The notes: a model not told the origin generated them from the sequence alone. Shown: positions 20,145-51,935, counted from the first letter of the stretch. The stretch is 64,000 nt of DNA from Longimicrobiales bacterium (GCA_028278645.1 JANQDZ010000034.1:124001-188000), one strand, 5' to 3'. Translations and numbers: made by a program.

Positions 20145-21353
20145 ATGTGTAAGAAACGGAGTATCCAGGCAGGCTTTGCCCTCCTCTTCCTCTTGGTTTT
20201 TCCTCTCATCACCCACGCACAAGGAACCACTCAGGTGACCTTCTCCGGTCAGGTCAGGCCCAGGTTCGAGCGGCGGACCCCGGTAGACGGAGAATGGAAC
20301 GGATTCACGTCCATGAGGGTGAGGGCCGCCTTGGAAGCCCGCCTAGAAGGGAGCGTCCGGATCTTCATGCAATTCCAGGACGTCCGCTTCTTCGGTGAAG
20401 AAGGCAACACCCTCGGGGACTACAGCGCGGACAATATCGATCTTCACCAGGGCTACCTGGAACTGACGGATGTGCCCTCCCTCGGGGGAGCTCTTCGGAT
20501 CGGACGTCAAGAGCTGGCGTTGGGAGAACAGCGGCTGGTTGGATCAGTGAACTGGGCCCAACAGGGTCGAAGCTTCGACGGGATTCGGTATACCACTCCG
20601 CAGAAAGACGGATTAAAAGTCGACTTCTTCGCCATGAAGCTCCGGGAGGAGACCGCCGGGACCCACGACTGGGATCAGTCCTTCTTGGGTGCTTACGGCG
20701 CCATCCCCGTAGGGGACGGAGGCTCGCTCGATCTCTATGGCCTGATGACCACCGACTCTCGAGATGAAAACGGGAGCGAGCTCACGTTCGGGGGGCTCTG
20801 GAGGGGAACAGCAGGTCCGTTGAGCCTCCGAGCCGAGGGGAGTCTCCAGACGGGGGAACGGGGAGGGGAGGACGTATCGGCCTATATGATGGGCGTTCGG
20901 GCGGGCGGGAATCTACACGAAAAGGTGACAGCCACCCTCTGGTACGATTACCTGTCTGGCGACGACGATCCTTCGGACGACGAGGTCGGGGTTTTTAACA
21001 CGCTCTTCGCCACCAACCACGCGTTTTACGGCTTCTACGATCTCTTCCTGAACATCCCGGCCCATACCGGGGGCCTGGGGTTGAAGGACGCCGCCATAAA
21101 ATTCGCGTTTACCCTCTCCCCCACCACCAGCCTCCGGGCCGACCTCCACAATTTCCGGTCGGCCCAGGAGGGAGATTTGTCCACCCAATCCCTGGCGAAC
21201 GAGTTGGATCTGACCCTGAACCATCGGATCTCCGGTGGGCTGACGATGGTCACTGGATACTCCTATGTCCAAGCCAAGGATGGGATCAAGGAGCTGGGGA
21301 GGCTGTCGGAAAACGCCCAGTGGCTCTTCCTGATGCTGAACGCGGTCTTCTAA
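20145..21353 (+). CDS. Outer-membrane beta-barrel porin, alginate-export-like
   Basis: 402 residues from ATG 20145 (GGAG nine bases upstream); the frame is open further upstream, but only this start gives a clean signal peptide ending THA-QG. The rest is made of alternating beta strands (FSGQVRPRFERR, LRIGRQELALGEQRLVG, AFYGFYDLFLNIP) and ends in Phe, typical of outer-membrane barrels; RIGRQELALG is characteristic of the alginate export/OprD-like family. It heads the nap cluster, so it may pass nitrate or nitrite, but alginate-export-family porins take many anions. It is separated from the Rieske gene by 139 bp with its own promoter. Confidence 0.8.
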   Translation: MCKKRSIQAGFALLFLLVFPLITHAQGTTQVTFSGQVRPRFERRTPVDGEWNGFTSMRVRAALEARLEGSVRIFMQFQDVRFFGEEGNTLGDYSADNIDLHQGYLELTDVPSLGGALRIGRQELALGEQRLVGSVNWAQQGRSFDGIRYTTPQKDGLKVDFFAMKLREETAGTHDWDQSFLGAYGAIPVGDGGSLDLYGLMTTDSRDENGSELTFGGLWRGTAGPLSLRAEGSLQTGERGGEDVSAYMMGVRAGGNLHEKVTATLWYDYLSGDDDPSDDEVGVFNTLFATNHAFYGFYDLFLNIPAHTGGLGLKDAAIKFAFTLSPTTSLRADLHNFRSAQEGDLSTQSLANELDLTLNHRISGGLTMVTGYSYVQAKDGIKELGRLSENAQWLFLMLNAVF

Positions 21354-21405
21354 CGCGCAACCCTTCGGACGGGCCCAGCCGAAGATCGGCCCGAGAGCAG
21401 CGTAT

Positions 21406-21448
21406 CGTGACGAGAGTCACTTTCGGAATTCTCAACACGACCTATTAT
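21406..21448 (+). promoter_or_regulatory. Class II Crp/Fnr-type promoter of the nap operon
   Basis: CGTGA-CGAGAG-TCACT (21406-21421) has perfect GTGA/TCAC cores. TATTAT at 21443-21448 matches the -10 consensus in five of six positions. If transcription starts at about 21455, the palindrome is centred at -41.5 and TATTAT occupies -12 to -7, the exact geometry of Fnr/Crp class II activation. The 5' leader would be 38 nt. No good -35 box is present, as expected for an activator-dependent promoter. Confidence 0.65.
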
Positions 21449-21492
21449 GGGGTGAATCCCGAAAACACAGAGAACCCGGACGAAAACCCAGT

Positions 21493-22107
21493 ATGGCAGA
21501 CGAAAAGAAGACAAAGGGCCAGGAGGGTGCCGACAGGAGGTCCTTCCTGGGTAAGGCGTCGAAAGGGGCCATGGCCGCTGGCTTGGTGGGCGGGTACGGA
21601 GGTCTGGGAGCCATCGCCCTACGGTACCTTTATCCGGCTCGCCCCGACGAGCTTTCCTGGCAATTCGTAGCCGAGGTGAACACCATCAGGGTCGGGGAGT
21701 CACTCCTCTATGAGGGTCCGTCTGGCGAGACCATCAATATCGCCCGACAAGCCCGGGACGGTGGGGACGGGGATTTTGTGGCCCTATCCAGCACCTGTCC
21801 TCACCTGGGGTGCCAGGTCCGGTGGGAAGCCCAAAACAACCGGTTTTTCTGCCCCTGCCACAACGGGGTTTTTGACCCTTCAGGAAAGGGCATAGAAGGC
21901 CCTCCAGGCGATGCCGGTCAGAGCCTGGCCGAATACCCGCTGAAAGTGGAGGGAGGGCTCCTCCACATCGCGGTACCCGCCGCGCGCCTGGCCGACGGAA
22001 CCGAGGCCGAGGGAAGGGTTTTGGCTTCCGGCACCGATCCTGTGGGGCCCGGTCACGATCCCTGCTTGGGCTCCAAGCCTCCCGCCAACACGGTCAGGAG
22101 GGCTTAG
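21493..22107 (+). CDS. Rieske iron-sulfur protein of the nap-linked bc complex
   Basis: 204 residues. Twin-arginine segment (DRRSFLGKAS) then one membrane helix; soluble domain with both Rieske motifs, CPHLGC and CPCHNGVF, which bind the [2Fe-2S] cluster through two Cys and two His. It takes electrons from quinol in the bc-type complex with the next gene, four bp away. It is much closer in context to nap than to the second Rieske gene at 51.4 kb, which serves nos. Ends in a Pro/Gly-rich tail. Confidence 0.92.
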   Translation: MADEKKTKGQEGADRRSFLGKASKGAMAAGLVGGYGGLGAIALRYLYPARPDELSWQFVAEVNTIRVGESLLYEGPSGETINIARQARDGGDGDFVALSSTCPHLGCQVRWEAQNNRFFCPCHNGVFDPSGKGIEGPPGDAGQSLAEYPLKVEGGLLHIAVPAARLADGTEAEGRVLASGTDPVGPGHDPCLGSKPPANTVRRA

Positions 22108-22110
22108 CCT

Positions 22111-23160
22111 GTGAGCACGGTCCTGAATTGGGTGGGCGAGCGGCTCCCGGTCTCAGGCAGGCAGTTTCGAGAGCTCACCAACGAGCCGGTTCCGTACCAC
22201 CTCAAACGCTGGTGGTTCGCCCTTGGAGGGACACCGGCCTACCTGTTCATCGTCCAGATCTTCACCGGGATACTCCTGGCCTTTTATTACGAAGCCTCCC
22301 CCGCGACGGCCTACCAATCCGTGGAGCATATCACCAACGAGGTGGCCTTCGGTTGGTTTATCAGGAGCCTCCACAAATGGGCTGCAACCCTGATGATCGC
22401 GGCCGTGATCCTCCACCAGATCCGGGTGTTCTTCACCGGGGCATATAGGCGTCCTCGGGAGATCAACTGGTTCGTGGGGATGTGCCTGCTCCTTTGTACG
22501 CTCATGACCGGGTTCACCGGATACAGCCTGGTTTTCGAACAGTTGAGCTTCTGGGGTGCGACGGTGGGAGCGAACATCGCAGACGCGACCCCGTTCGTTG
22601 GAGGCTTCCTCAAGAACATGATGCTGGGGGGGGAAAGCTATAACCAAGCAACGCTCTCCCGGTTCTTTGTCCTGCACGCCGCCATCCTCCCGGTGACCAT
22701 TGTCCTTTTGATCGCCGTTCACATCACCATCATTCGGCTACAGGGCGTGACTGAGTTCCGGTTCAAAGACGAAGAGACCGGGGCCCCAAAGACCTTCAAC
22801 TTCTTCCCGGACCACCTATACACCGAGCTGATGATCGGCCTTGTGTTGATGATCCTCCTGAGCGCTCTGGCGACCATCTTCCCGGCCACTCTCGGACCCG
22901 CCGCGAATCCCCTCCAGACGCCTGAGATCATCAAACCGGAGTGGTTCTTCTACGTCGCATTCCGATGGCTGAAGCTCTTTACCGGCACCGCGGCCATTCT
23001 GAGCATGGGATTCGTGCTCTTCGTGATGTTCGCCTGGCCCTTCATCGACGCATTGATACGAAAGAAGACCAGGTTCCAGGAGGCCTCCGTCTGGATCGGC
23101 ATCCTGGGTGTTCTGGCCATTATCGGCCTGACCGTTTGGGAAGCAATCGCCAAGCACTGA
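22111..23160 (+). CDS. Cytochrome b of the nap-linked bc complex
   Basis: 349 residues from GTG 22111, three bases after the Rieske stop. It combines the b6-like part (four helices; heme ligands in LHKWAATLM and HQIRVFFTG, and FFVLHAAILP with VHITIIR) and a subunit IV-like part (KPEWFFYVAFRWLK, then three helices). It oxidises quinol at the membrane, with the Rieske protein as one electron acceptor. There is no separate cytochrome c1; the anchored octaheme protein encoded next is the likely acceptor. The sequence contains a G8 run near 22626, inside the coding frame. Confidence 0.92.
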   Translation: MSTVLNWVGERLPVSGRQFRELTNEPVPYHLKRWWFALGGTPAYLFIVQIFTGILLAFYYEASPATAYQSVEHITNEVAFGWFIRSLHKWAATLMIAAVILHQIRVFFTGAYRRPREINWFVGMCLLLCTLMTGFTGYSLVFEQLSFWGATVGANIADATPFVGGFLKNMMLGGESYNQATLSRFFVLHAAILPVTIVLLIAVHITIIRLQGVTEFRFKDEETGAPKTFNFFPDHLYTELMIGLVLMILLSALATIFPATLGPAANPLQTPEIIKPEWFFYVAFRWLKLFTGTAAILSMGFVLFVMFAWPFIDALIRKKTRFQEASVWIGILGVLAIIGLTVWEAIAKH

Positions 23161-23169
23161 GGCACGTAA

Positions 23170-24810
23170 ATGACTCTCGAGACCAAACGCATCGTCATCG
23201 CCTCCCTGGGGGGGCTGTTCCTGCTTTCCTTGGTGTTCGTCCAGTGGATGGAGACTGCTCGAAAAGCCGAGGAGGCGGGCCTCCGGGAAGCCCATGTGGC
23301 CGTCCCGGCCCAATCCGAGGAGTGCGTCGACTGCCACGCCGAAGAGAACCCTGGGATCGTCACGCACTGGACAGGATCAACCCACGCCGAAACCGGTGTC
23401 GGTTGCTGGGACTGTCACCAGGCGGTAGAAGGCGATCCGGACGGCTATCTCCACAACGGGGCGTTCATTGCGACGGTTGTGACACCCATGGACTGCGCTC
23501 GCTGCCATGACGCCGAAGCAGCCGAGTTCGCCCAGAGTCACCATGCCGCCGGCGGGAACATCTTGGCCTCTCTGGACAACTTCCTGGCCGAGACCGTAGA
23601 GGGTGCCCGGATGGAGTTCAACCCCCATTCACCCACCCCCGGAAGGGACTTCGAGACCGCTAACGGGTTCGCCAGCGCCAATTCCGGGTGTCAGCAGTGC
23701 CACGGGGCGAAGGTGGCCCTGGAAGCCACGGACGGCGGATCCATCACAGTGGACGATCTTCAGCCCGATGAGAACGGGATTCCCACCAACCAGGATGCGG
23801 TAGCCCGGATCGCTCTGGACGAGAACGGTCAGCCCATGCTGGTGGCGTCGACCTGGCCTAACACCGGCATTGGCCGCCTGAATCTCGACGGCTCCAACGG
23901 CTCATGCACGGCTTGTCATAGCAGGCACGATTTCTCACCGCGACGGGCAAGGCAGCCGGAAAACTGCGGTAAATGCCACCTGGGACCAGACCACCCCCAG
24001 AAGGAGATCTACGAGGAGTCCAAACACGGCATCGCTTACCGGGATCTGAAGGACGACCTGAACCTGGACGCCGTGGAATGGGTCCTCGGCGAGGACTACG
24101 CCGCAGCCCCCACCTGCGCCACTTGTCATATGTCGGGGAACATCCGGAATGGAGGCCGGATCACCCACGATCCAGGGGAGCGGATCTCCTGGACCAACCG
24201 CCCGGCGGTGAGCCTGGCCATGGACACGGACATCAACCACAACATCGTGACCGAGACGGATCCCGAGCTCCGCCGGGAGTTGATCCACGACACCTGGAAC
24301 CAGAAGCGGGACCGTATGAAGGCGGTCTGTACCACCTGCCACACCGACACGTACGTGAACTCCTTCTACACCCAATACGACGACCTCGTGGTCCTCTACA
24401 ATGAAAAATTCGCGAAGCCTGGCCTCGCCATCATGACAGCCCTGGCTGACAACGAACTCAGGACCCCGACGCAGTTCGACGAAGAGATCGAATGGACCTG
24501 GTTCTACCTCTGGCACCACGAGGGACGACGGGCCCGCCACGGAGCCTCCATGATGGCACCAGACTACACCCACTGGCATGGGATGTACGAGGTGGCCGAG
24601 CGGTTCTATATGGAGCTGATCCCCCAAGCCAGGGAGATCACCGGCCACGCTGCTTCAACGGGACACGGGGCGGCTGGGCGGGCCGTGAACGCAGTTATCG
24701 AAGAGATACTGTCCCGTCCGGAGCACGTCTGGTTCGAGCAAGGCGCCGAGGCGGCCTCCGAGAGGATTCGCCAGGAGATGGAACGGCGATACGGACGGAC
24801 AGGGGGTTAA
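23170..24810 (+). CDS. Membrane-anchored octaheme cytochrome c, HAO-like
   Basis: 546 residues. One N-terminal membrane helix (about 8-25) and eight CXXCH motifs at residues 52, 79, 109, 174, 246, 266, 316 and 387. The spacing and the blocks CHSRHDFSPRRAR, CHLGPDHPQKEIYEESKHG, WHHEGRRARHG and MMAPDYTHWHGMYE are those of the octaheme hydroxylamine oxidoreductase family. Family members oxidise hydroxylamine or hydrazine, or reduce nitrite or hydroxylamine when the crosslinked catalytic Tyr is lacking; the candidate Tyr region is around residue 466. Placed between cytochrome b and napA it may carry electrons from the bc module to Nap, act on nitrite, or both. It lies 9 bp after cytochrome b and 5 bp before napA. 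Confidence 0.88.
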   Translation: MTLETKRIVIASLGGLFLLSLVFVQWMETARKAEEAGLREAHVAVPAQSEECVDCHAEENPGIVTHWTGSTHAETGVGCWDCHQAVEGDPDGYLHNGAFIATVVTPMDCARCHDAEAAEFAQSHHAAGGNILASLDNFLAETVEGARMEFNPHSPTPGRDFETANGFASANSGCQQCHGAKVALEATDGGSITVDDLQPDENGIPTNQDAVARIALDENGQPMLVASTWPNTGIGRLNLDGSNGSCTACHSRHDFSPRRARQPENCGKCHLGPDHPQKEIYEESKHGIAYRDLKDDLNLDAVEWVLGEDYAAAPTCATCHMSGNIRNGGRITHDPGERISWTNRPAVSLAMDTDINHNIVTETDPELRRELIHDTWNQKRDRMKAVCTTCHTDTYVNSFYTQYDDLVVLYNEKFAKPGLAIMTALADNELRTPTQFDEEIEWTWFYLWHHEGRRARHGASMMAPDYTHWHGMYEVAERFYMELIPQAREITGHAASTGHGAAGRAVNAVIEEILSRPEHVWFEQGAEAASERIRQEMERRYGRTGG

Positions 24811-24815
24811 GCACC

Positions 24816-27203
24816 ATGGCAATGAAGCGACGGAGGTTCCTCAGGACCCTGGGAGCCGGCACTGCCGGGATCGCCGCCTTCTCATGCAGTGATCAGGAAG
24901 CGGCCCGCCGAATCGCGGCCGAACAGGGTTCGGTGCAGGATGCTGACCTGACCTGGACCAAAGCCCCGTGCCGATATTGTGGCACCGGGTGTGGCGTCGA
25001 AGTCGGCGTGAAGAACGGTCGGATCATGGCGGTCCGGGGGGACGAGGCCAACCCGGTGAACCGCGGCCTGCTATGCGTCAAGGGTTACCACCTCCCCGCC
25101 ATGCTGTATGGGGAGGATCGACTCACGACGCCCCTGCTCCGGAATTCGAACGGCCAGGGCTTTTCGGAAATCTCCTGGGATGAAGCCCTGAACCTCATCG
25201 CCCAGAAGTATCAGGAAGCTCTGGATGAGGCGGGCCCAACGTCCGTGGCTTTCTACGGCTCCGGGCAGTGGGGAATCCACGACGGCTACGCGGTGACGAA
25301 GTGGTTCAGGGGTGGGTTGAGAAGTAACAACGTGGAGCCCAACGCCCGGCTATGTATGGCCTCGGCAGTAATGGGCTTCATGACCCAGTTCCAGAGCGAC
25401 GAACCCATGGGTTGTTACGAGGACCTCGAAGCCGGTGACGACTTCATCCTCTGGGGCAACAACATGGCGGAGATGCACCCCGTCCTCTTCTCCCGGATCC
25501 TCGCCAACAAACGGGAAAACCCTAGCGTTCGCATCGTGGACCTCGCCACCCGGCGGACACCCACCAGCGATTACGCCGACATGTACGTCGAGTTCAAGCC
25601 GAACACCGATCTGGCTCTGGCCAATGGGATCCTCCATCTCCTGGTGGCCAACAACCAGGTGGACCAGGCCTTCGTTCAAGAAAACGTGGTGTTCCGGCGG
25701 GGGACCGAGGAGCTGGAACAGATCGGATACGGCTCCTGGGGACCCGATGGCCTGGGGCTGAGCCCGGACGACGGCCCGGCAGAACACTATCGGTTTGCCG
25801 ACCAGGCCCGACCCTCCTCCTTCGACGAGCTCGAGGAGTTTTTGGCCGATTATGCGCCGGCCCGGGTCAGCGAGATCACTGGCGTGCCTGTGGGGCAAAT
25901 CCACGCACTGGCCGAGATGTACGGGGATCAGGGGCGCGGGACGGTGAGCCTCTGGTGCATGGGCGTGAATCAGCACGTCCGCGGCACGTGGATGAACAAC
26001 CTCATCAACGACCTTCACCTGATCACGGGGAAGATCAGCCGGCCCGGCGCTAACCCCTTCAGCCTCACCGGCCAACCCTCAGCCTGCGGTACGGCAAGGG
26101 AGGTCGGGACACTTTCCAATCGGCTTCCTGCCGATCTCGTGGTCATGAACCCGGCCCACAGGGCCAAGGCCGAAGAGATCTGGGACCTGGAACCGGGCAC
26201 GATCCCGGAACGACCCGGCTACCACACCATGGACATGTTCCGGGCCTTCATGCGGGGCGACGTCCGGGTTATGTGGGTTCAGACCACTAACCCCTGGGTC
26301 AGCATTCCCAACGTCCGTAGGATCCAGCGGGAGCCGAACGACGGGCGTTTCCTGGTCGTCAGCGACATCTACCCCACGCCCACGACGGAAGCCGCGGACC
26401 TCATCCTCCCCTCTGCAGGATGGGTGGAGCGGGAAGGCACGTTCGGGAACTCGGAACGCAGGACCCAGCACTGGGAAAAAGCCGTGGAACCGCCGGGAGA
26501 GGCGAAAGAGGACGCCTGGCAGGTCATGGAAGTGGCCAAGCGCATGGGCATGGGACACTTGTTCCCCTGGCCGGAGGAGGACTGGCACGAAGCCATGTAC
26601 GAGGAATACCGCCGGTTCGGCCTGGGAATCGGCAAGGACCTGGCCTCCTATCAACAGCTACGGGAGACCCGTGGCCTCCTCTGGCCCGTCGTGGATGGCA
26701 AGGAAACCCGGTACCGATACGCTGCCGGGTTTGATCCCTACGTCCAGAAAGACAGAGGGGTGCATTTCTACAAGGCCACGGGGTTCGGGGAAAGGGCAGC
26801 CTTCTGGCTTCGACCGTACCATCCCCCAGCCGAGGCACCGGATGACGAATACCCATTCTGGCTCTCGACGGGACGGATCCTCGAGCACTGGCACACCGGG
26901 TCCATGACTCGTCGGGTGAAACAGCTTCATCAGGCGGCCCCGGAGGCCTACGTGGAGATCAACCGGGTCGACGCCACGGAGTTGAGCATCAACTCCGGAG
27001 ACCTCGTGAGGGTCGTGAGCCGACGTGGAGACCTCGAGTTGAGAGCAAAGGTTGATGGTCGGGGTCAACCACCCAGGGGTACCCTGTTTATCCCCTTCTT
27101 CGACGAAGACCGGCTTGCGAACCTCCTGACCGTCGACGCCATGTGCAACATCAGCAAAGAACCGGACTTCAAGAAATGCGCGGTTCGAATCGAAAGAGCT
27201 TGA
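24816..27203 (+). CDS. napA: Periplasmic nitrate reductase, catalytic subunit
   Basis: 795 residues from ATG 24816 (AGGGGG upstream; ATG 24822 is also possible). Tat signal KRRRFLRTLG. [4Fe-4S] cluster ligands C52, C55, C59 and C87 (CRYCGTGCG, LLCVKG); molybdenum ligand C180 in NARLCMASAVMGF, the NapA hallmark (DMSO-reductase family with Cys ligand), followed by DEPMGCYEDLE and WGNNMAEMHP. C-terminal MGD-binding LSTGRILEHWHTGSMTRR. It reduces nitrate to nitrite outside the cytoplasmic membrane. SCSD after the Tat signal is only a weak lipobox. The usual partners NapC, NapGH, NapF and NapD are absent nearby. Confidence 0.95.
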   Translation: MAMKRRRFLRTLGAGTAGIAAFSCSDQEAARRIAAEQGSVQDADLTWTKAPCRYCGTGCGVEVGVKNGRIMAVRGDEANPVNRGLLCVKGYHLPAMLYGEDRLTTPLLRNSNGQGFSEISWDEALNLIAQKYQEALDEAGPTSVAFYGSGQWGIHDGYAVTKWFRGGLRSNNVEPNARLCMASAVMGFMTQFQSDEPMGCYEDLEAGDDFILWGNNMAEMHPVLFSRILANKRENPSVRIVDLATRRTPTSDYADMYVEFKPNTDLALANGILHLLVANNQVDQAFVQENVVFRRGTEELEQIGYGSWGPDGLGLSPDDGPAEHYRFADQARPSSFDELEEFLADYAPARVSEITGVPVGQIHALAEMYGDQGRGTVSLWCMGVNQHVRGTWMNNLINDLHLITGKISRPGANPFSLTGQPSACGTAREVGTLSNRLPADLVVMNPAHRAKAEEIWDLEPGTIPERPGYHTMDMFRAFMRGDVRVMWVQTTNPWVSIPNVRRIQREPNDGRFLVVSDIYPTPTTEAADLILPSAGWVEREGTFGNSERRTQHWEKAVEPPGEAKEDAWQVMEVAKRMGMGHLFPWPEEDWHEAMYEEYRRFGLGIGKDLASYQQLRETRGLLWPVVDGKETRYRYAAGFDPYVQKDRGVHFYKATGFGERAAFWLRPYHPPAEAPDDEYPFWLSTGRILEHWHTGSMTRRVKQLHQAAPEAYVEINRVDATELSINSGDLVRVVSRRGDLELRAKVDGRGQPPRGTLFIPFFDEDRLANLLTVDAMCNISKEPDFKKCAVRIERA

Positions 27204-27814
27204 TGCGGGCTCAGCGGGGTAAACGGAGTATCTGGCTCCTGGCTTTGACAGCAGTGGCCGGCCTCGTGTCAGGAGCCTGCGGCCAGGGCGATTGGGTGCC
27301 CGTAGCGGATTCGGGCGGAGCAATGAAGTCCAGCGGGGCCGTCCGGGCCGAGCGACGGCTGTATGACGGGGCGCCTCCCATCATCCCTCACGACCCGTTC
27401 GGGGCCTCCTGCGCCTCCTGCCATGACGAGTTCGGAGTAGGCGTGGAAGGGGTAGGATTCGCACCGGCTTCGCCCCACGACGACACCGATCACGAAGGAG
27501 CCACCGGACGGTGCCGACAGTGTCACGTCCACGTCCTTTCTGGCGATCTCTTCGTAGCTAATGGCTACCAGGGACTGGAACAGGATCTGAGGCTCGGGGG
27601 CCGTCTATATCCCGGCGCGCCCCCCACCATCCCTCACCAGGTCCTCATGCGAGAGAACTGCGTGGCCTGCCATGCGGGGCCCGGGGCGAGGGTGGAGATC
27701 CTCACCACCCACCCGGAGCGGGTCAGGTGCCGGCAGTGCCACGTGCCCGTGGACACAAGAGAGGGTATCCTCAGCTACACCGTGACGCCCACCACCACGC
27801 CGGAGGGTCCATGA
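27203..27814 (+). CDS. napB: NapB-like cytochrome c with four hemes
   Basis: 203 residues; ATG overlaps the napA stop (TGATG). Signal peptide with an imperfect lipobox (SGAC, residue 26). CXXCH at 70, 104, 153 and 176, while known NapB has two. The protein reads as two NapB-like units: GAPPIIPHDPFGASCASCH with CRQCHVH, then GAPPTIPHQVLMRENCVACH with CRQCHVP. Both units keep the PP-x-IPH motif of NapB. It would pass electrons from the octaheme protein or the bc module to NapA. The second unit retains the usual NapB end (SYTVTPT). Confidence 0.85.
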   Translation: MRAQRGKRSIWLLALTAVAGLVSGACGQGDWVPVADSGGAMKSSGAVRAERRLYDGAPPIIPHDPFGASCASCHDEFGVGVEGVGFAPASPHDDTDHEGATGRCRQCHVHVLSGDLFVANGYQGLEQDLRLGGRLYPGAPPTIPHQVLMRENCVACHAGPGARVEILTTHPERVRCRQCHVPVDTREGILSYTVTPTTTPEGP

Positions 27815-28368
27815 GCGAGAAGCCGGAGGTCATACTCCTGGGAGCAGAGGAAGAAGCGGAGCGCCTTTGGCAGGGCGCTTTAAGAGCTCAAGGATCGGCC
27901 AGTGACGATTTTGTGGCGCTGTGCGAGGCGTTGGATCTGGGCCTGAGAGCCGCGGAGATCCTCGTTACCCACAAGCTCCAGCCCCTCAAGGACCAGTTCC
28001 CGGCAACCATCGGCATCCAGCTCGAAACCCCGTCACCTGAGGTGGACCCGGAGAGGGACGCCATCAACGTCCCCAATTCCCTCCCCTTCATCGCCATCTT
28101 GGACCTTCTGAGTGGTGAGGAGATGGACTGTGTGGCTCCTGGACTGCACCGGGGCTGGGAGGATAGGCGCTTCTCCTGCCGACGCTCCCGCGTTACCGCC
28201 GGAGAGGCCCTTGGCGTCACCCTGACGGAGGAAGAGCGGCACCAACTCCTGGTTCTCGCCGCCTATCGGAACCGCATCTTCAGGAGCCCACCCCCTGTCC
28301 AGGTGAATCGAGGGCAGGTCCTGGAAGCCTTCCCGGCCCTGAACAAACTCATGGAGCGCTTCAGGTAG
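27811..28368 (+). CDS. Unrecognised 185-residue protein ending the nap operon
   Basis: Starts at ATG 27811, overlapping the napB stop (ATGA). No signal peptide, heme motif or membrane helix; mostly helical with an acidic N terminus, two lone Cys near the middle (MDCVAPG and FSCRRS) and the sequence VPNSLPFIAILDLL. It is not recognisably NapD, NapF or a TorD-type chaperone. Position at the end of a coupled operon suggests a cytoplasmic maturation or insertion role for NapA, because no napD is seen, but this is inference from context only. Confidence 0.7.
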   Translation: MSEKPEVILLGAEEEAERLWQGALRAQGSASDDFVALCEALDLGLRAAEILVTHKLQPLKDQFPATIGIQLETPSPEVDPERDAINVPNSLPFIAILDLLSGEEMDCVAPGLHRGWEDRRFSCRRSRVTAGEALGVTLTEEERHQLLVLAAYRNRIFRSPPPVQVNRGQVLEAFPALNKLMERFR

Positions 28369-41528: not shown

Positions 41529-42353
41529 CTAGAGATCCTGTCGTTTGAACAACCTGACGGAGAGCCCGACGGGAACGACGGTCCAGACCAAAAGCCCAAG
41601 GAACCCAATCGCAGACGCCACTGCCACCGAACCGGTGAGTTTGATAAGGGTGGCCCCCCCAGGCCCGAATAGGTGGATCCCTCCAACCTGGAGCAGGGAT
41701 AAAACCCGGACTGTGTCGATGGGGTTGCCCAAAAGCCCCCCGATGAGGACGATCCTGAGGGCACCGGGGGTCAGATAGAGCGTGGTGCCAAGCATGATCA
41801 CGCCGTACACCACTTCAAAGAAGATCCACACTCCCAAGGCTATCCCGATTGAGAGCTGGGTCCGCCCCGATAACAGCGATACCAACATCGACACCCCGGT
41901 GAAGACCAGAGCCAGAAGGAGACTATACCCGATGACGATGAGGTAGCTGAGAGCTCCTATCGGACCTATGACCAAAGCGATGATGATGCCCGGTGCTCCA
42001 AACCCGACGATGGAAGCTCCAAGTACCGTCATGACCAGGCCAAGGTACTTTCCCAGAAGGACGCGGGATCGGGGGAGAGGCTGGGTGGCGAGGAGCTCCA
42101 GGTATTCCGTGTTGGAGGTAAAGCTGAACACGCCGAGGAGCAATGCGAAAAGGGGTATCAGAAATCCCGCCAGGTTCACGATGCTGGCTGCCGTCCGGGT
42201 AAAGTCCTGGAAACCTGCGTATCCCGATGTGACCATTCCGAAATAGGCAGTCAGAATGGTGAGGATCGTAAACAAACCCGAGAAAAGGAGGACCCAGCGG
42301 TTTCTCCTGTTGAGCGTGAACTCCTGGCGCCCAATCCACCAAACCGAGCTCAT
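41529..42353 (-). CDS. nosY: Nos ABC transporter permease
   Basis: 274 residues with six membrane helices, ABC-2 type. SSVWWIGRQEF at the start, SNTEYLELLATQPLPRSRVLLGKYLGL between helices 2 and 3, and GIIIALVIGPIGAL. It works with NosF to supply the sulfur or another factor needed to mature the copper-sulfide centre of NosZ. Its start overlaps the nosL stop (ATGA). Confidence 0.88.
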   Translation of the reverse strand: MSSVWWIGRQEFTLNRRNRWVLLFSGLFTILTILTAYFGMVTSGYAGFQDFTRTAASIVNLAGFLIPLFALLLGVFSFTSNTEYLELLATQPLPRSRVLLGKYLGLVMTVLGASIVGFGAPGIIIALVIGPIGALSYLIVIGYSLLLALVFTGVSMLVSLLSGRTQLSIGIALGVWIFFEVVYGVIMLGTTLYLTPGALRIVLIGGLLGNPIDTVRVLSLLQVGGIHLFGPGGATLIKLTGSVAVASAIGFLGLLVWTVVPVGLSVRLFKRQDL

Positions 42354-43099
42354 CTTTGGGCCTCTTCATCGGATGTGTGGGCTCCCGCGACCTTCAACAT
42401 GCCAAAGGGGCGATCCTTAGACGGACCGATGGGGAAGCCCGAGCCTGGCTTGAGGGCCAGGAACCGCACCTCCACGGTGTCCCCCGCCGCTGGGACAGTG
42501 ATAGCGCCGGCTTCTGGATAACCGGTGACGGTCAGGGTGAGGTCAGCCTCCAGTTCTCGGCCCACCGCCCTCAAGATCACGAGATCGTCTTTCTCTACCT
42601 CCACAACGTCCGGGACCATCCGGTCCCCTTCGATGGTGACCTCCAAGATCTGGTCCGGGGTCCCCCGCTCGGCGCGGTACCCGTACCAGTCCACCACTTT
42701 TTCGTCAGGATGCTGTTTGGCCTCCTTGGCGCCACTGGCATCACTAAAAGTCACCACCCTGCCATTCATCACCGTGGGGATATGGTCGGTAAGGAGGAAG
42801 GTCGACAGCTCGGCACTCTGGAAAAACCCAGTCCGGTAGTCTGCGAAGTAGATGTCCGAGGCCCGGGGGCGTTCGTCCTTCGGTAGCCCTTCGAGGTACC
42901 GGAGCAGACACGCCGGGGAGTCGAAGGTGATGAACTCGGATCCGCTCACGAAGCCAGCGGATTGGTTCACCTGGTCGATGACCATGTTGCATTCCCGACA
43001 GACGTCGATCCCTTCTACCAACTCGATTTTCGGCTCCTGGGCGCAGCCAGCCAAGATCACGAGGCTCAAAACCGTACGAAGAAATAATCGAAGCCTCAT
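42350..43099 (-). CDS. nosL: NosL copper chaperone with a C-terminal extra domain
   Basis: 249 residues; lipobox L-A-G-C. NosL domain (about 20-150): CRECNMVIDQVNQSAGFVSG (the C-x2-C-x-M copper motif), FDSPACLLRYLEG, ADYRTGFFQSAEL and FLLTDHIPTVMNG. NosL delivers Cu(I) to NosZ. A second, cupredoxin-like domain (about 165-245: VTIEGDRMVPDVVEVEKDDLVIL, GDTVEVRFLALKPGSGF, GMLKV) is not part of ordinary NosL. That domain has no Cys or His in the usual copper-ligand positions, so it may only serve binding. Overlaps nosF by four bases. Confidence 0.88.
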   Translation of the reverse strand: MRLRLFLRTVLSLVILAGCAQEPKIELVEGIDVCRECNMVIDQVNQSAGFVSGSEFITFDSPACLLRYLEGLPKDERPRASDIYFADYRTGFFQSAELSTFLLTDHIPTVMNGRVVTFSDASGAKEAKQHPDEKVVDWYGYRAERGTPDQILEVTIEGDRMVPDVVEVEKDDLVILRAVGRELEADLTLTVTGYPEAGAITVPAAGDTVEVRFLALKPGSGFPIGPSKDRPFGMLKVAGAHTSDEEAQR

Positions 43100-44034
43100 G
43101 AGGATCCCTCCCGGCGTTCCGTCGCCTCAAAGTGGGGTCGCACCAATGCATCCCAATCCGGTGGCTCGGTGTGGAATTCTTCCACCGCTCCACCAGCCTC
43201 CTCGATGGCCTTGACCACGTCCAGCCGCCGGTTCGGGAGAGCCCGAAAGTGCACGTGCCGTCCATTCCGATCAGTGATCTCCGCTCCGGCAGCCCTCGCC
43301 GCCGCCAGGATCGACTCGGAAGTGGCGGTCAGCACCACTCGAACCTTCGTTTCCCTGGTGACGGTGGTCCTGAAGACCGAGGCGTCTTCCACAACCACGA
43401 GTCGCCCTCCGACCAATACCGCGACCCGATCCGCCGTCCGCATGGTCTCGTGCAAGTTGTGAGATGAAAAGATGACGGTCATGCCCTTGGCCCTCAGGGT
43501 CTTGAGGTGATTCCGGAGCCTTCGGTTCCCCAGGGAATCCAGGTTCAAGGTCGGCTCGTCCAAGACATAGAGCGGAACCTCTTTCAGGAATGCCACCGCT
43601 AGGCTAAGGCGCTGCAACATCCCACCGGAGAATTCCCTCGTGAATCGATCGGCATCTTCCTCGAGGGCAAATAGGTCCAACATCCCGTCGACCTTGGCCT
43701 TCGGCTCCCCTCGAAGTCGTGCAAAAAAAGCCAGAATCTCCCGGGCAGTCAGAAGCCCCGGCATCGTAGTCTTCTGCGGCAGGTAAGACACCACGGCCTT
43801 CGCTTTGTCGGGCTCCGCTGAGACGTCGGATCCGTTGATCAGCACCCTTCCAGCCGAAGGGGAATGCAGTCCGGCGATTGCTCTCAGGACGGTGGTTTTC
43901 CCGCCCCCGTTTGGTCCAAGGAGGGCGAGGGTCTCACCTTCCCCTACCTCGAGGTCGATCCCCCGCACGGCTTTAACCTGCCCGAAACTTTTCTGGAACT
44001 CCTCCAACTTCAGGATGGACTCTTTCGATATCAT
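43096..44034 (-). CDS. nosF: Nos ABC transporter ATPase
   Basis: 312 residues from ATG 44034, overlapping the nosD stop; an earlier start lies inside nosD and is rejected. Walker A GPNGGGKTT, Q-loop LPQKTT, signature FSGGMLQRLSLAVAFL, Walker B LYVLDEPTLNLD and H-loop SSHN. The C-terminal region after 220 (a small alpha/beta domain, RVVLTATSESILAAARAAGAEI) is as in NosF. It drives NosY during NosZ maturation. Confidence 0.9.
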   Translation of the reverse strand: MISKESILKLEEFQKSFGQVKAVRGIDLEVGEGETLALLGPNGGGKTTVLRAIAGLHSPSAGRVLINGSDVSAEPDKAKAVVSYLPQKTTMPGLLTAREILAFFARLRGEPKAKVDGMLDLFALEEDADRFTREFSGGMLQRLSLAVAFLKEVPLYVLDEPTLNLDSLGNRRLRNHLKTLRAKGMTVIFSSHNLHETMRTADRVAVLVGGRLVVVEDASVFRTTVTRETKVRVVLTATSESILAAARAAGAEITDRNGRHVHFRALPNRRLDVVKAIEEAGGAVEEFHTEPPDWDALVRPHFEATERREGSS

Positions 44035-45422
44035 TGCCGGCGCCTCCGAGTCCGTAGCCAGGAACTCCCAATGGCCGTGCCTGCCATCGGACCTAGAGTG
44101 AGAAGGAGGTAGAAAAACGCCCAGGCAGGAGCCCGGTTCAGGCTCCGAGGCCCGAACAGGTGCCACGGAACGTCGCCGTTCGGTGACGGCTCCATGAGAG
44201 GCGCGGGATCCTGTGCCTCTCCCAGGTCGAGGATGGGGAGAGCGTTCTCCGCCAGTTCCAGGATCCGAGCTGCGGGACTCAGAAGGTAGAACCGGACCTC
44301 CGGAGTGGAAGATTCCATGACCTGGAACACGTTTTGTATACTGAAGGGGTGGTCTCCCCAGCCATCGCCATCCAAGTCGTAACCTCGGTAGTCAGTCCAG
44401 TGGTTCCCTCCTCCTTCGTCGGCCCAGGCGATATCCATCTCGCTCACATCCTGGAGAAGCTCGCTGAGGTTGTTGATGAAGTTGTTCCGGATAAAGGAGT
44501 TGTGATCGCTTCCCCCGTTCAGCTGGACGGCCAGGTCATTGTCCACGACGTCGTTCCGTGCAATCACGTTGTTACTGCTATTGTTCAGGAAGATGCCCCG
44601 GCTGTTGTCGATGATGAGGTTGGAATCGGCGAAGACGTTGTCCATCGACTGGTAGAGAATCCCGTAAGCCCTGAATCCCCGGCACTGGGCAAACGTGTTC
44701 CCCGTGAGGGAGATGTCTTCCGAATACATCAGAGCTGCCCCAGCAACGTTTCGTTCGAAGAGATTCCCCCGGAAGTTGTTGTGGTTGGAATACATGTAGT
44801 GGAGGCCGTACCGGACATGATGGATGTGGTTATCGACGACCTCGGTTGAGTCGGAGAACGAGAAATAGATCCCATCCCGGGCATTCACGATCTCGTTCCC
44901 GAGAACGAGGTTCCCCCTGGAGTTCCAGAGGTGGATCCCGTTTCCCCGGTCCGATTCGATCAGGTCCTCCCTACCCTCGATGAGATTCCCTTCGAGGTGA
45001 GCGTAGTTCCCGGCCTTCACATAGATCCCGTGTAGGGATTCCGACACCCTGGAGTTGCGAACCGTTACCGAGTCGGCCTCCACGAGGATACAGGCCATGT
45101 CTTTGGTCAGGTGGGGACCGGCTTCGCTCACATGGATCTCATCCAGGACCGTTCCAGGCGCCAGGATCTGGACCACGTTTCCCACATAGCCCCCACGAAT
45201 GGTGGGTACACCTTCGCCAGTCCCGGTCAAGACCACGGGGACACGAATGACCAGGTTCTCACGGTACTCCCCTGGAGAGAGGCGGATCGTATCACCTGGA
45301 CCCGCTCTTTCGAGGACGGCTCCGATGGACTCCCCCGACAAGAGGGTGTGCGTAGCCACGCCCCCCTCTTGGGGAGCCGCCTGGAGGGTCACCAGCGCCA
45401 GGAGGATCGCAGCAGAACTCAT
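44031..45422 (-). CDS. nosD: NosD maturation protein, right-handed beta-helix
   Basis: 463 residues. A short signal peptide, then many short beta-helix rungs rich in Asn (NSRGNLVLGNEIVNARDGIYFSFS, NNFRGNLFERNVAGAALMY, NNSSNNVIARNDVVDNDL, NHWTDYRGYDLDGDGWGDHPF), the NosD/CASH pattern. It ends in a membrane helix (AFFYLLLTLGPMAGTAIG). The periplasmic partner of NosFY in assembling the NosZ CuZ site. Confidence 0.9.
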   Translation of the reverse strand: MSSAAILLALVTLQAAPQEGGVATHTLLSGESIGAVLERAGPGDTIRLSPGEYRENLVIRVPVVLTGTGEGVPTIRGGYVGNVVQILAPGTVLDEIHVSEAGPHLTKDMACILVEADSVTVRNSRVSESLHGIYVKAGNYAHLEGNLIEGREDLIESDRGNGIHLWNSRGNLVLGNEIVNARDGIYFSFSDSTEVVDNHIHHVRYGLHYMYSNHNNFRGNLFERNVAGAALMYSEDISLTGNTFAQCRGFRAYGILYQSMDNVFADSNLIIDNSRGIFLNNSSNNVIARNDVVDNDLAVQLNGGSDHNSFIRNNFINNLSELLQDVSEMDIAWADEGGGNHWTDYRGYDLDGDGWGDHPFSIQNVFQVMESSTPEVRFYLLSPAARILELAENALPILDLGEAQDPAPLMEPSPNGDVPWHLFGPRSLNRAPAWAFFYLLLTLGPMAGTAIGSSWLRTRRRRQ

Positions 45423-45472
45423 AAGGAGGACCCAGGCTTCATGAGGAGAAGCCCGTCGATCCGAGTCCCTTT

Positions 45473-45970
45473 CTATCTGGTCATCCGACGGATCTCGTCG
45501 TTGACCATGGTTTGAGTCCGGACCCCCGCCACTCCGGTTTTCACCAGGAGCTGCCAGACTTCCTCCATGTCGAGGAAGAGCTGTTTATCAAAAGCACCGG
45601 CCTCCCGGCGGGCATTGCAGTCCTCGTATAGGCCGAGGGCAGCGGTGAGCTGGTGCTGCGTGTCCACCCACTCCTCCTGGAGCGTTGGACTGAAGTCGGA
45701 CCCGTGTTGGTTGAACCCTTCGGTGATGTACGCCGCGACCGGGTTGATGACGTTGAGGACACCGATGATCTCGATGTCCTTGTTATGCACCCTGGCCTCC
45801 CAATCCTCATCCGAACTCACCTCCATCGGGTCGGGGACCACCAAGGGTTCTGGAGCCTCCACCGTCAGGAGGGGGGCTTCCGCGTCGGGCTCGCTCGCCG
45901 GGGACCCATCGGTCCCTCCGCAGGCCGAAACCAGCCCGGCTGTCAAAAATCCAATCAGTAGGTTTCGCAT
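45473..45970 (-). CDS. Nos-cluster lipoprotein of unknown function
   Basis: 165 residues from ATG 45970 (GGAGGTTAGAG upstream). Lipobox V-S-A-C after a short signal peptide, then an acidic Pro-rich linker and a helical domain (EDWEARVHNKDIEIIGVLNVINPVAAYITEGF, QEEWVDTQHQLTAALGLYEDCNARREAG). No heme or metal motif; lone Cys near 115. It is encoded between the NosB-like protein and nosD with two bases between stop and start, so it belongs to the operon. Not recognised as any named Nos factor. Confidence 0.7.
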   Translation of the reverse strand: MRNLLIGFLTAGLVSACGGTDGSPASEPDAEAPLLTVEAPEPLVVPDPMEVSSDEDWEARVHNKDIEIIGVLNVINPVAAYITEGFNQHGSDFSPTLQEEWVDTQHQLTAALGLYEDCNARREAGAFDKQLFLDMEEVWQLLVKTGVAGVRTQTMVNDEIRRMTR

Positions 45971-45972
45971 CT

Positions 45973-46629
45973 CTAACCTCCAGTACTTGTCTCCGGGCGC
46001 GATTCGCCGTCCGGTGCGGGTCTCCGCAATGTCAGGTAGAAGGCCCCCGTCAGTAGCAGTCCGAAAGCCAAAAAGAGGTAGGCCCCGAAAGCCGGGTAAG
46101 ACCACACCTCGAACTGGCCCACCATTTTGTGCCCGAATACAGGGGGCGTGAACGGATCGACCGTCACCGCGGCCCGTGGATCCAGATTTTTTCCATAAAA
46201 ATCAAGCTTGTACCAGAAACTCCAGAGGGAGAATCCACCGAAATACACCGCAATCACGAGCAAATCCAGGAGAGAGCGTAGGTTCCCGATGGCTGCAGAC
46301 CTGAGTGTCAGGACGCCGATCAACCCGATCACGAGCGGTATCCACTTCAGTTCGGTGAAATCCTCCTCCCGGAGTTCCTCCATCCCGATGTAGTGGTTGA
46401 GAACATTGATCTCGGTGAGGTCATTCCCCCCGTCGCCCCCCACCAGCGCGTGGCTATAGATGTGGAGGTCGAGACCCTCGGGGTACTGCTGCGCCCAGAA
46501 ATTCATCCGCCAAAGGGGCGCGAAGAACGTCGGGATCAAGACCAAGACAGCGACCGCCACTAACAACCGGCTTCGCCCTGTGAGGGGCCGATCCAGACTG
46601 TTCGAGAGTCGTTTTAGCCAGGCGACCAT
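45973..46629 (-). CDS. nosB: NosB-like multi-pass membrane protein
   Basis: 218 residues with four to five membrane helices. The first helix is followed by a periplasmic loop (PLWRMNFWAQQYPEGLDLHIYSHALVGGDGGNDLTEINVLNHYIGM) characteristic of the membrane protein that follows nosZ in clade II clusters. It is given the nosB name only because of position and topology. The exact job of NosB in N2O reduction is unknown. RBS not distinct; it lies 64 bp after nosZ. Confidence 0.6.
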   Translation of the reverse strand: MVAWLKRLSNSLDRPLTGRSRLLVAVAVLVLIPTFFAPLWRMNFWAQQYPEGLDLHIYSHALVGGDGGNDLTEINVLNHYIGMEELREEDFTELKWIPLVIGLIGVLTLRSAAIGNLRSLLDLLVIAVYFGGFSLWSFWYKLDFYGKNLDPRAAVTVDPFTPPVFGHKMVGQFEVWSYPAFGAYLFLAFGLLLTGAFYLTLRRPAPDGESRPETSTGG

Positions 46630-46693
46630 CAGCGCCTCGTTCGGTTTCTTCCGGCCGGAGCCGTTTTCGGCCCCGACCGGTCACAAGTGTCTC

Positions 46694-48601
46694 CTACCTG
46701 ACGAGGAGGTACCCCTGCATCTCCTGGTGGAGAGCGCTACAGAAATTCGTGCAGTAGAAGGGGTATACTCCCGCCTTGTCAGCGACGAAGGTCACGGTCT
46801 TCGTCTCTCCAGGGTCGATCACCAGGTTCACGTTGTACTCGTCCACAGCCATGCCGTGGAGCTCGTCCCTGGTCTGCTCAATGTTCGTGACATGAATCCG
46901 GACCGTGTCTCCCTGGTTCACTCGGATAACGTCCGGAGCGAAGAACGACCGAACCGACAACATCCATACCTCGACCATCCGGCCATTCCGCTCGATCCTC
47001 GTATCCTCCACTTCCCAGACGGCTTCGGGATGGGAGGGCCACTGTGGGTCATCCCGCTCGTAGACCTCAATTGGGTTGAGCTTGTCCGCGTGCACCATCA
47101 CGGCGTAGTGGGGCTCAGGCTCGGTGAAAGCATCGTAAAGGAGGGACATCCGTTCCCCCTGGATGTCTATGAGCTGAGCCGATTCGGGGATTGACGGACC
47201 CACGCTGACGTGACGCCCTTTGGAGAGCTTGTTCAGGGCCACCAGGTAATTCCCGTCCGGAGACCGGCTGTCCCCTTCGGCCGCCACCAGGTGTCCGATG
47301 TTGTACGCAACCGGAATCTTGTCCAGCACGTACTGGTTCATGTCTGCACCGTCCTCATACGGAGGGAGCTTCCATTTCGCCACGGCGCTCTCTACAAAGA
47401 GGGAGGTATACGCGTTCCCTTTGTCATCGAACTGGGTATGCAGGGGGCCCAGGCCTACCGGGATTTCGGCCTCCCTGACCGATTCGTAGGTGAGCACCGG
47501 GATCCCGTCGATGATCTCTTCAAAATCTTCGGCCGCGATGGCGGTCCGGATCTTTTCGATGTCATAGACGGTGGTGGTGGGGGAGAGTTTGCCAGATCCG
47601 ATGATCCAACGGCCGTCGGGGCTTACGTCAACACCGTGGGGAGACTTGGCCAGTGGGATGAACCAAGCAATGTCTGAAACGTCCTCAGGCATGATGACGG
47701 GCGCCCCGGCATGGGTCTCAAAGTTCCCGGCATCCACTGCTGCTTGGGCGGCCCGCCAGTCCACCATAAGGATGTAGTCTTTATCCTTCTGAGAGGCGGT
47801 GACCTCCAGCTTCCCACCCTCGATGAACTCACGCTCAGAGTTATAACACGTCCAGAAGAAGTACCCGTCGCTGGGCCCCTTCCCAGAATCTCCGAGATCG
47901 TAGTTGAATGGCGGTACCAGGATCTCCCACCCGAGCGTCATGTCCCCGGAGTTTGGATCCACCTTGATTCCAGCGACCACGCCTTTATACCGGGTGGCGT
48001 ACTCTGTTACGTCGGCGTATGTGCCTTCCGGGAATGGGATGGACATCCGCGTAGCCATCGTGACGTACTCGGTGTTGGGGCTCACAAAAGAGCTTCCGTG
48101 GTTCGCTGAGATATTCGGGATCTTCAGAATCTGCTTGACCTTGAAGTCCCGGAGATCGATGCGTGCGATACGTCCGTTGGCGTTGTCATTGATGAACAGC
48201 CAGCGGCCATCGTACTCCCCATCGGTCTCGGACGGGCCTGGGTGGTGGGAGTCTCCCCAGGTGTAGCCGCCCAGCATTTCCTTCGACTCATCGTCAAATC
48301 CATACCCGGTGCCGGGATACGGCGTGAACACGGGAATGGTGGCGATGTGTCGCATGGAAGGGACGCCAGACACGAAGATCTGCCCGCTGTGGCCACCGGA
48401 GTAGAAGAGGTAGTACTCATCCAGGTCTCCCGGTGCCACGTACGTGGCCAGAGCAGCGTTGGTTAGCTCTGATCCTCCGGCCGCAGCTCCGCCCCTTCCC
48501 TCCCCTCTCCGTGGCGGGCCATCTCCGCAGCCGATCACCCCTCCGAGAAACAGGGCGACCATCGGCAGAGTCACCAGCCGGTAATTGGTCTTCGTACTCA
48601 T
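46694..48601 (-). CDS. nosZ: Nitrous oxide reductase, clade II
   Basis: 635 residues from ATG 48601 (GAGGAGGCG upstream). The signal peptide is Sec-type, not Tat, and ends in a V-I-G-C lipobox, so the enzyme may be lipid-anchored; clade I NosZ has a Tat signal. Seven-bladed propeller with CuZ His candidates in DSHHPGPSE, SANHGSSF, SPHGVDVS, GPLHTQF, YNIGHLV and EPHYAVM. C-terminal cupredoxin domain with the CuA site: HGMAVDEYN, then CTNFCSALHQEMQGYLLV (two Cys, His, Met). It reduces N2O to N2 in the periplasm. Confidence 0.96.
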   Translation of the reverse strand: MSTKTNYRLVTLPMVALFLGGVIGCGDGPPRRGEGRGGAAAGGSELTNAALATYVAPGDLDEYYLFYSGGHSGQIFVSGVPSMRHIATIPVFTPYPGTGYGFDDESKEMLGGYTWGDSHHPGPSETDGEYDGRWLFINDNANGRIARIDLRDFKVKQILKIPNISANHGSSFVSPNTEYVTMATRMSIPFPEGTYADVTEYATRYKGVVAGIKVDPNSGDMTLGWEILVPPFNYDLGDSGKGPSDGYFFWTCYNSEREFIEGGKLEVTASQKDKDYILMVDWRAAQAAVDAGNFETHAGAPVIMPEDVSDIAWFIPLAKSPHGVDVSPDGRWIIGSGKLSPTTTVYDIEKIRTAIAAEDFEEIIDGIPVLTYESVREAEIPVGLGPLHTQFDDKGNAYTSLFVESAVAKWKLPPYEDGADMNQYVLDKIPVAYNIGHLVAAEGDSRSPDGNYLVALNKLSKGRHVSVGPSIPESAQLIDIQGERMSLLYDAFTEPEPHYAVMVHADKLNPIEVYERDDPQWPSHPEAVWEVEDTRIERNGRMVEVWMLSVRSFFAPDVIRVNQGDTVRIHVTNIEQTRDELHGMAVDEYNVNLVIDPGETKTVTFVADKAGVYPFYCTNFCSALHQEMQGYLLVR

Positions 48602-48646
48602 ATTTCGCCTCCTCTGTGGAAAAACTGGTCGCACTCCGATTCCGTT

Positions 48647-49894: not shown

Positions 49895-49913
49895 GGCCTG
49901 ATCTCCCCCCGCC

Positions 49914-51410: not shown

Positions 51411-51935
51411 TTAGACCACCAGTTTGAAATCACGTTCGACCCCCAGAGCCAGATCGACGACCAGAGAACCGTCTTTCGGAGAGACCTCGAGGTGATGCCA
51501 CTGCAGGGGCCGAGGGGCTGGCCCGGAATAGTTGGTCCCGTCGCCGTGGAACTTCGAGCCGTGACAGGGGCAGTGGAACTCGCCCAGAGCCTCAAACTCA
51601 TGGTCCCGAACCGTCAATTGTCGCGACTGCTCGAACGGCGCGAATTTCACCGTGCAACCCAGGTGGCTACAAACCCCAGAAACAGCGCTGTAGCTGTTCC
51701 CGTCCCTGAGCAAAAAGACGCGATGTTCCTCGAGGTACGTCATGCCATTCTGGAACGTGCCCGGTGACCCCAAACGAACCCTTTTTGGGGGTTCGTAGAG
51801 GACGTTCGGAACCAGTGCCCGGAACATGGGCCAAGAACCCAAAACCGCGCCCAATCCGATGACTCCACTGGTAAGGCGCTGGAGGAAGGTCCGCCGGCTG
51901 GGGGCCCCTCTGCTTTCAGTTTCGTTGTTCTTCAT
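51411..51935 (-). CDS. Rieske iron-sulfur protein of the nos-linked bc complex
   Basis: 174 residues. Twin-arginine segment (SRRTFLQRL) and one membrane helix; Rieske motifs CSHLGC and CPCHGSKF. The ATG overlaps the stop of the preceding oxidoreductase gene (ATGA). Oxidises quinol together with cytochrome b. Confidence 0.93.
   Translation of the reverse strand: MKNNETESRGAPSRRTFLQRLTSGVIGLGAVLGSWPMFRALVPNVLYEPPKRVRLGSPGTFQNGMTYLEEHRVFLLRDGNSYSAVSGVCSHLGCTVKFAPFEQSRQLTVRDHEFEALGEFHCPCHGSKFHGDGTNYSGPAPRPLQWHHLEVSPKDGSLVVDLALGVERDFKLVV

Follow-up and report, generated by a model that had tools for sequence, protein, structure and literature searches.

The stretch of DNA analysed here (the window) is 64,000 nucleotides long and represents positions 124001-188000 of contig C39 in a 4.9 Mb draft genome that is 95.6% complete. 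The genome belongs with Gemmatimonadota; close relatives from its phylum appear to share records with named Gemmatimonadota/Gemmatimonadales loci (L044 with L062, CP070812.1; L047 with L063). The genes under study are listed below by their positions in the window.

20145..21353, plus strand: outer-membrane beta-barrel of the Alginate_exp family (Pfam PF13372, E 1.7e-25)
21493..22107, plus strand: Rieske 2Fe-2S protein (PF00355, E 4.1e-11)
22111..23160, plus strand: cytochrome b (PF00033, E 3e-53; also PF13631 and PF00032)
23170..24810, plus strand: octaheme cytochrome c (OCC), eight CxxCH motifs (PF13447, E 1.6e-23)
24816..27203, plus strand: NapA (NF010055, 964.6 bits against a cut-off of 904; TIGR01706, 940.3 bits against a cut-off of 930.55)
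27203..27814, plus strand: tetraheme NapB-like cytochrome, four CxxCH motifs, with an internal repeat
27811..28368, plus strand: conserved 185-aa ORF (ORF186) with no Pfam family and a helical, HEPN-like predicted fold

The Rieske and cytochrome b genes are separated by 3 bp, the cytochrome b and OCC genes by 9 bp, and the OCC and NapA genes by a few bases; furthermore, stop and start codons overlap by 1 base between NapA and the NapB-like gene and by 4 bases between the NapB-like gene and the 185-aa ORF. These tiny gaps and overlaps indicate that the genes from Rieske through the 185-aa ORF likely form one operon with a single transcript. The original prediction had described a Rieske protein, a cytochrome b and a membrane-anchored octaheme of the hydroxylamine oxidoreductase (HAO) superfamily beside Nap, and all of these were present, on the same strand and closely packed; its gene list omitted the seventh conserved ORF (27811-28368), which follows the NapB-like gene. 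It had also described napA and napB without napC, napGH or napD, and none of these was found within the cluster; however, the protein taken for NapB has four hemes, not two. The same gene order, which was sought in other genomes, is present in other families of Gemmatimonadota, with octaheme identities of 77-82%, and its retention across families argues that the arrangement is not due to chance. No relative was found in the viral contigs searched. Porin homologues lie close to the octaheme in approximately 20 of the loci compared; the Alginate_exp barrel is a recurrent neighbour of octaheme clusters and possibly a nitrate/nitrite porin.

The Rieske protein carries the cluster motifs CPHLGC and CPCHNGVF, and in the second of these Gly replaces Ser and Phe replaces Tyr in every homologue where the motif was found. 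In high-potential Rieske proteins, the Ser and Tyr are hydrogen-bond donors that raise the potential. By this established Rieske chemistry, the missing Ser and Tyr predict a lower, menaquinol-type potential. Cytochrome b consists of a b6-like domain fused to a subunit-IV-like domain, with seven predicted transmembrane segments, heme ligands H88/H102 and H189/H204 at b6-like spacing, and the Qo motif PEWF. Judged by the presence of the Rieske motifs, the four heme-b histidines and PEWF, the Q-cycle machinery is intact. At the position of the b6f heme-ci cysteine, before GGTP (approximately residue 39), the window protein has Ala and many relatives have Cys; heme ci may have been gained or lost among otherwise similar Rieske-cytochrome b-OCC complexes.

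OCC has an N-terminal transmembrane segment at residues 8-26. Its best solved relative, and the closest structure by sequence, is the archaeal IhOCC of Ignicoccus hospitalis (PDB 4qo5), which was matched with E 2.2e-41 from the single sequence and 5.4e-72 from a profile, and which has Val at the position of His275 in the window protein. Residue positions of NeHAO were mapped onto OCC by alignment, with Ruegeria HAO as a bridge. All eight proximal histidines are invariant in the OCC alignment, further invariant histidines are candidate distal ligands, and Asp274-His275, which aligns with the catalytic pair Asp267-His268 of NeHAO, is invariant in 94 of 94 sequences. The crosslinking tyrosine of NeHAO (Tyr467, within GGWTYTEGW) aligns with His468 of OCC, and across the OCC family this column holds mostly His, Gln or Trp. 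A candidate crosslinking tyrosine had been proposed at about residue 466, in the PDYTHWHG region; in the alignment via Ruegeria HAO, Tyr466 falls opposite Trp465 and is not the HAO tyrosine. A placement outside the HAO family would have counted against the original prediction, and OCC does fall within the HAO superfamily, by its PF13447 match and by PDB matches to HAO; its reading as a hydroxylamine oxidoreductase was not upheld, because the crosslinking tyrosine is missing. OCC is thus an HAO-like octaheme without this tyrosine, as are the reductive octahemes IhOCC, eHao and HAOr. The missing tyrosine together with a retained active-site region follows the reductive-octaheme pattern, from which we infer, with direction read from sequence, that OCC is of the reductive type within the superfamily and not a hydroxylamine oxidoreductase. 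Oxidation of hydroxylamine or another reduced nitrogen compound, feeding quinone in reverse as nitrifier HAO does, would agree with membership of the superfamily and the same eight-heme core, but is very improbable given that the tyrosine is missing family-wide, that the octahemes usually stand next to reductases or complexes that oxidise quinol, and that the cluster has no haoB. No haoB- or cytochrome c554-type partner is adjacent to OCC, whose neighbours are the Rieske protein, cytochrome b, NapA and the tetraheme NapB-like protein; in contrast, Ruegeria HAO comes with haoB.

To place the cluster among its relatives, named genomes were scanned, which gave at least 80 octaheme loci, and among the matches listed 70 octahemes had more than 2.5 kb of sequence on both sides (the full-flank set). 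Among these listed matches, Rieske and cytochrome b are encoded directly upstream of the octaheme in 49 of the 70 loci; NapA follows directly downstream in 20 of these 49 and does not in the other 29, and at none of the 70 does NapA directly follow an octaheme that lacks Rieske-cytochrome b. The Rieske-cytochrome b-OCC arrangement was found in about ten phyla among the matches listed, including Gemmatimonadota, Acidobacteriota, Planctomycetota, Myxococcota, Krumholzibacteriota, Bacteroidota, Chlorobiota, Ignavibacteriota, KSB1 and Nitrospinota. On an octaheme tree obtained by a quick search, with many open forks, long branches for the outgroup rows, and the NeHAO, Caldithrix and Kuenenia octahemes left out, the Nap state changes at least 12 times and the Rieske-cytochrome b state at least six times. 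The stable unit, by gene neighbourhood, is Rieske-cytochrome b-OCC, and Nap is therefore an add-on that is attached in some clusters and absent in others. Octahemes of the same family are also encoded beside NapC/NirT cytochromes in Pseudomonadota, and a related octaheme lies beside NarHJI and NarK within Gemmatimonadota; both are settings expected of a nitrite reductase.

These data bear on the role of the octaheme, which the original prediction had left as an electron conduit, a nitrogen-transforming enzyme or both. As a mere conduit, it would carry electrons from Rieske/cytochrome b to NapB and NapA as a multiheme stand-in for cytochrome c1 and NapC, without being catalytic itself, and its place between cytochrome b and NapA in both gene order and expected electron path would suit this, as would the presence of Rieske-cytochrome b at every full-flank locus, among the matches listed, where NapA directly follows the octaheme. 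However, the 29 listed loci without NapA directly downstream, the invariant Asp-His pair, and the occurrence of relatives that stand by themselves, next to NapC-type donors or next to NarHJI make a purely conducting octaheme unlikely. The conduit-only form of the earlier proposal is weakened accordingly.

Octahemes adjoining Rieske-cytochrome b share a conserved N-terminal anchor that appears not to be cleaved off (window sequence MTLETKRIVIASLGGLFLLSLVFVQWMETARKAEEAG), whereas octahemes without Rieske-cytochrome b mostly have ordinary cleavable signal peptides. Among the matches listed with more than 2.5 kb upstream, the anchor is present in 56/56 octahemes with adjacent Rieske-cytochrome b and in 0/24 without. 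Anchors were called with an HMM trained on 16 sequences at a threshold of 8 bits, which was set by hand and not separately tuned; the 46 held-out positives scored 28.6 to 95.2 bits and all others with upstream sequence scored at most 6.6, so the gap is wide relative to the cut-off. Two apparent exceptions (L086 and L090) are both cut by a contig end within 200 bases. It should be noted that only three contrasts in anchor and Rieske-cytochrome b fall on well-supported (starred) branches, all in the expected direction, and that the two features are partly co-inherited, so that the perfect correlation reflects few independent events. No cytochrome c1/f is encoded in the contiguous run, and the anchored octaheme comes after cytochrome b. 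Since the anchor tracks a neighbouring Rieske-cytochrome b, OCC would be a membrane-bound c subunit that most likely takes the place of cytochrome c1/f, and we hold it to be highly probable that the octaheme serves the Rieske/b complex as its c subunit. Together, the conserved synteny and the match between anchor and Rieske-cytochrome b support the predicted quinol-fed, bc-type module with an octaheme in its electron path beside Nap.

Other N-termini were also observed. A more distant type of octaheme in Gemmatimonadota (L055-L057) lacks Rieske-cytochrome b and starts with an N-terminus of another kind, which also appears to be uncleaved; in one of these loci (L056), the octaheme, with its own type of anchor, lies near narH-narJ-narI-narK and apparently serves Nar, not Nap. 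A KSB1 locus (L130, 12455-13954) encodes two octaheme types, one with a signal peptide beside a porin and the other downstream of its own Rieske-cytochrome b.

NapA scored above both NCBIfam NapA cut-offs, one of them narrowly, and has a Tat signal (RRRFL), a 4Fe-4S motif and the Cys ligand region. A PROSITE-type, lipobox-like AAFSC follows the Tat signal in all Gemmatimonadota copies, although it is not universal, and suggests that NapA is a Tat lipoprotein tethered to the membrane. The NapB-like protein, with four CxxCH motifs in place of the two of a diheme NapB, scores under the NapB Pfam cut-off. Its two halves align with a score of 95, whereas 2000 shuffles with Cys and His held in place averaged 37 and reached 79 at most; this score, above all shuffles, indicates that a diheme NapB-like unit was duplicated in tandem, and a PP-x-IPH motif occurs twice in the protein. 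The tetraheme form is present in 20 of 20 cluster homologues found, window included, a count in which L044 and L062 are one record. Bacteroidota and Chlorobiota clusters with NapG and NapH encode an ordinary diheme NapB. The tetraheme protein is possibly also a lipoprotein, given its VSGAC motif, and its structure was predicted with low confidence (pLDDT 64). The 185-aa ORF follows NapB or, in clusters without NapA, follows OCC directly, a placement that points to a possible role with OCC or the Rieske/b complex. Its fold was predicted with a pLDDT of 87.8 and resembles HEPN-like bundles with Z 9.8, a value within the chance range for helical bundles, and Foldseek gave E values no better than 0.84. 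When the ORF was checked as a TorD/NapD-like chaperone, there was no Pfam match and no TorD chain among the fold-search matches.

Genome-wide absences were judged by family searches of the 95.6%-complete draft. No match to PF02335 (Cytochrom_C552, NrfA) was obtained, NapD was not found, and no NapH-type protein exceeded the cut-off. A single weak match to NirK (20.8 bits, far under the cut-off) lies inside the NosZ region, the only NirS match was an unconvincing 20-bit piece in a 367-aa ORF, and the matches to PF01077 (NIR_SIR), considered as siroheme nitrite reductase (NirB), are DsrAB. The two PF03264 matches, considered as NapC-type donors, are an FGE-sulfatase fusion and a 24-heme protein, neither of them a plain NapC/NrfH. 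The original prediction would have been weakened by napC, napGH or nrfA elsewhere; the genome searches returned no NrfA and no canonical NapC/NapGH set. The genome has ten Molybdopterin-family matches, and six other proteins of the family, some scanned in part, had formate dehydrogenase, PhsA or QrcB models as their best matches, with none over the NapA or NarG cut-offs; as no other NapA or NarG passed, the cluster NapA is the only nitrate reductase recognised in the genome. With NrfA, NirK, NirB and a convincing NirS missing, OCC is left as the candidate nitrite reductase, although at 95.6% completeness a missing NrfA or NirK could reflect an assembly gap. Altogether, it is likely, on these and the residue data, that the octaheme acts as a nitrite reductase.

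The principle of a Rieske/b complex with an octaheme is known from Caldithrix and Kuenenia, and the window holds a widespread variant of it. In Caldithrix abyssi, Cabys_2564-2556 encodes napM-A-G-H with Rieske, cytochrome b and eHao, and its authors proposed Rieske/b as a quinol oxidase that passes electrons to the octaheme as nitrite reductase (PMC5317091). As in the window, a single locus combines Nap with Rieske, cytochrome b and an octaheme that lacks the HAO tyrosine; however, Caldithrix has NapGH and a tetraheme NapM without NapB, whereas the window has a duplicated tetraheme NapB and no NapGH. The R/b-3 complex of Kuenenia stuttgartiensis (kuste4569-4574) contains the HAO-like octaheme kuste4574 (PMC12954380, PMC12485887) and, like the window, no cytochrome f/c1. 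Kuenenia R/b-3 differs in its split b6/subunit IV, extra multiheme subunit and putative NAD(P) oxidoreductase; in the window, cytochrome b is fused, Nap is attached, no NAD(P) oxidoreductase is encoded within 21493-28368, and the NapB-like protein is the only other multiheme there. Furthermore, the Kuste4569 Rieske potential is above +300 mV (PMC12954380), and the window motifs predict a lower one. The earlier statement that Nap with Hao elsewhere relies on NapGH or NapC donors was thus too strong, as Caldithrix has Rieske and cytochrome b in addition to NapGH (PMC5317091) and Kuenenia R/b-3 holds an HAO-like octaheme (PMC12954380). A Desulfobaculum plasmid (L150) likewise encodes an eHao-type octaheme without the crosslink tyrosine beside a quinol-oxidising partner, but this partner is of the NapC/NirT family, not Rieske/b, and no Q-cycle is expected. 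In Nitrospina gracilis, a bc-like operon is accompanied by an atypical octaheme and no other c subunit, as in the window; however, this organism is a nitrite oxidiser with no Nap, and its octaheme was not described as HAO-type (PMC3578206). Octahemes detected with an HAO HMM in Phycisphaerae have been suggested as nitrite reductases (PMC11266412). Neither the anchor rule nor the tetraheme NapB nor the multi-phylum triad was described in the literature searched, which lay outside subscription journals, and these three points are provisionally new.

The product of the octaheme could also be NO, as proposed for Kuenenia HAOr/kuste4574, with NO and N2O handled elsewhere and the nos cluster of the window removing N2O. 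In favour of this, kuste4574 is homologous to HAOr and sits in a Rieske/b complex, and HAOr itself, a Kuenenia relative whose biochemistry has been studied, reportedly produces NO instead of ammonium (PMC12485887); likewise, the genome has no NirK or convincing NirS, yet a clade II NosZ cluster lies about 13-18 kb away. OCC is, however, nearer by sequence to IhOCC than to the Kuenenia structures. NosZ is also common in non-denitrifiers, which counts against this reading, and we regard such a division of labour as rather unlikely. That the octaheme makes ammonium rather than NO is given slightly better than an even chance.

Based on the gene set and order, the motifs, the anchor/synteny correlation, the tetraheme duplication and the genome absences, the operon probably encodes a membrane-bound, quinol-fed nitrate/nitrite respiratory unit, for which we infer a physical complex. 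Rieske and cytochrome b would oxidise quinol, presumably menaquinol, through a Q-cycle, and the anchored octaheme, in the structural place of cytochrome c1/f, would itself reduce nitrite, with ammonium as the most likely product. NapA and the tetraheme NapB, each probably held by a lipid anchor, would join this module and reduce nitrate to nitrite, so that the whole set would convert nitrate to ammonium and conserve energy at the bc step; that Nap is fed through the Rieske-cytochrome b-OCC module is likewise probable. The fullest form of this proposal is tentative, with less than an even chance of holding in every part: a membrane respirasome in which one octaheme replaces c1/f, reduces nitrite to ammonium and relays electrons via the tetraheme NapB to a lipid-anchored NapA, giving Q-cycle-coupled ammonification independent of NapC, NapGH and NrfHA, with a core that extends across many phyla. 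Classical periplasmic nitrate ammonification by Nap and NrfHA takes quinol electrons without proton-pumping at the quinol oxidase. If the proposal is true, both the nitrate and the nitrite steps would be coupled to a bc-type Q-cycle, and surveys based on nrfA, nirK and nirS would overlook a nitrite reductase in Gemmatimonadota, Planctomycetota, Acidobacteriota and others. The cluster would also make it possible to test whether a catalytic multiheme enzyme can stand in for cytochrome c1/f, which bears on the debated function of Kuenenia R/b-3.

Further redox modules were observed in the same genome. On the minus strand of the window, positions 41529-51950 hold a clade II (Sec-type) nosZ, nosD, an ABC ATPase, a NosL-like ORF and a membrane protein, and this nos cluster has its own multiheme cytochrome c, cytochrome b and Rieske, which represent a second bc-type complex on the contig, approximately 13-23 kb from the Rieske-cytochrome b-OCC-Nap cluster. 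On another contig (G000:C42, locus L153), dsrA and dsrB are encoded with an adjacent NrfD/DsrP-like membrane protein. A further quinol module on G000:C13 (locus L060, 7909-15952) comprises a Rieske-like protein that lacks the usual cluster motifs and a cytochrome b, together with 9-heme, 24-heme (with a NapC-like N-terminus) and 19-heme proteins.
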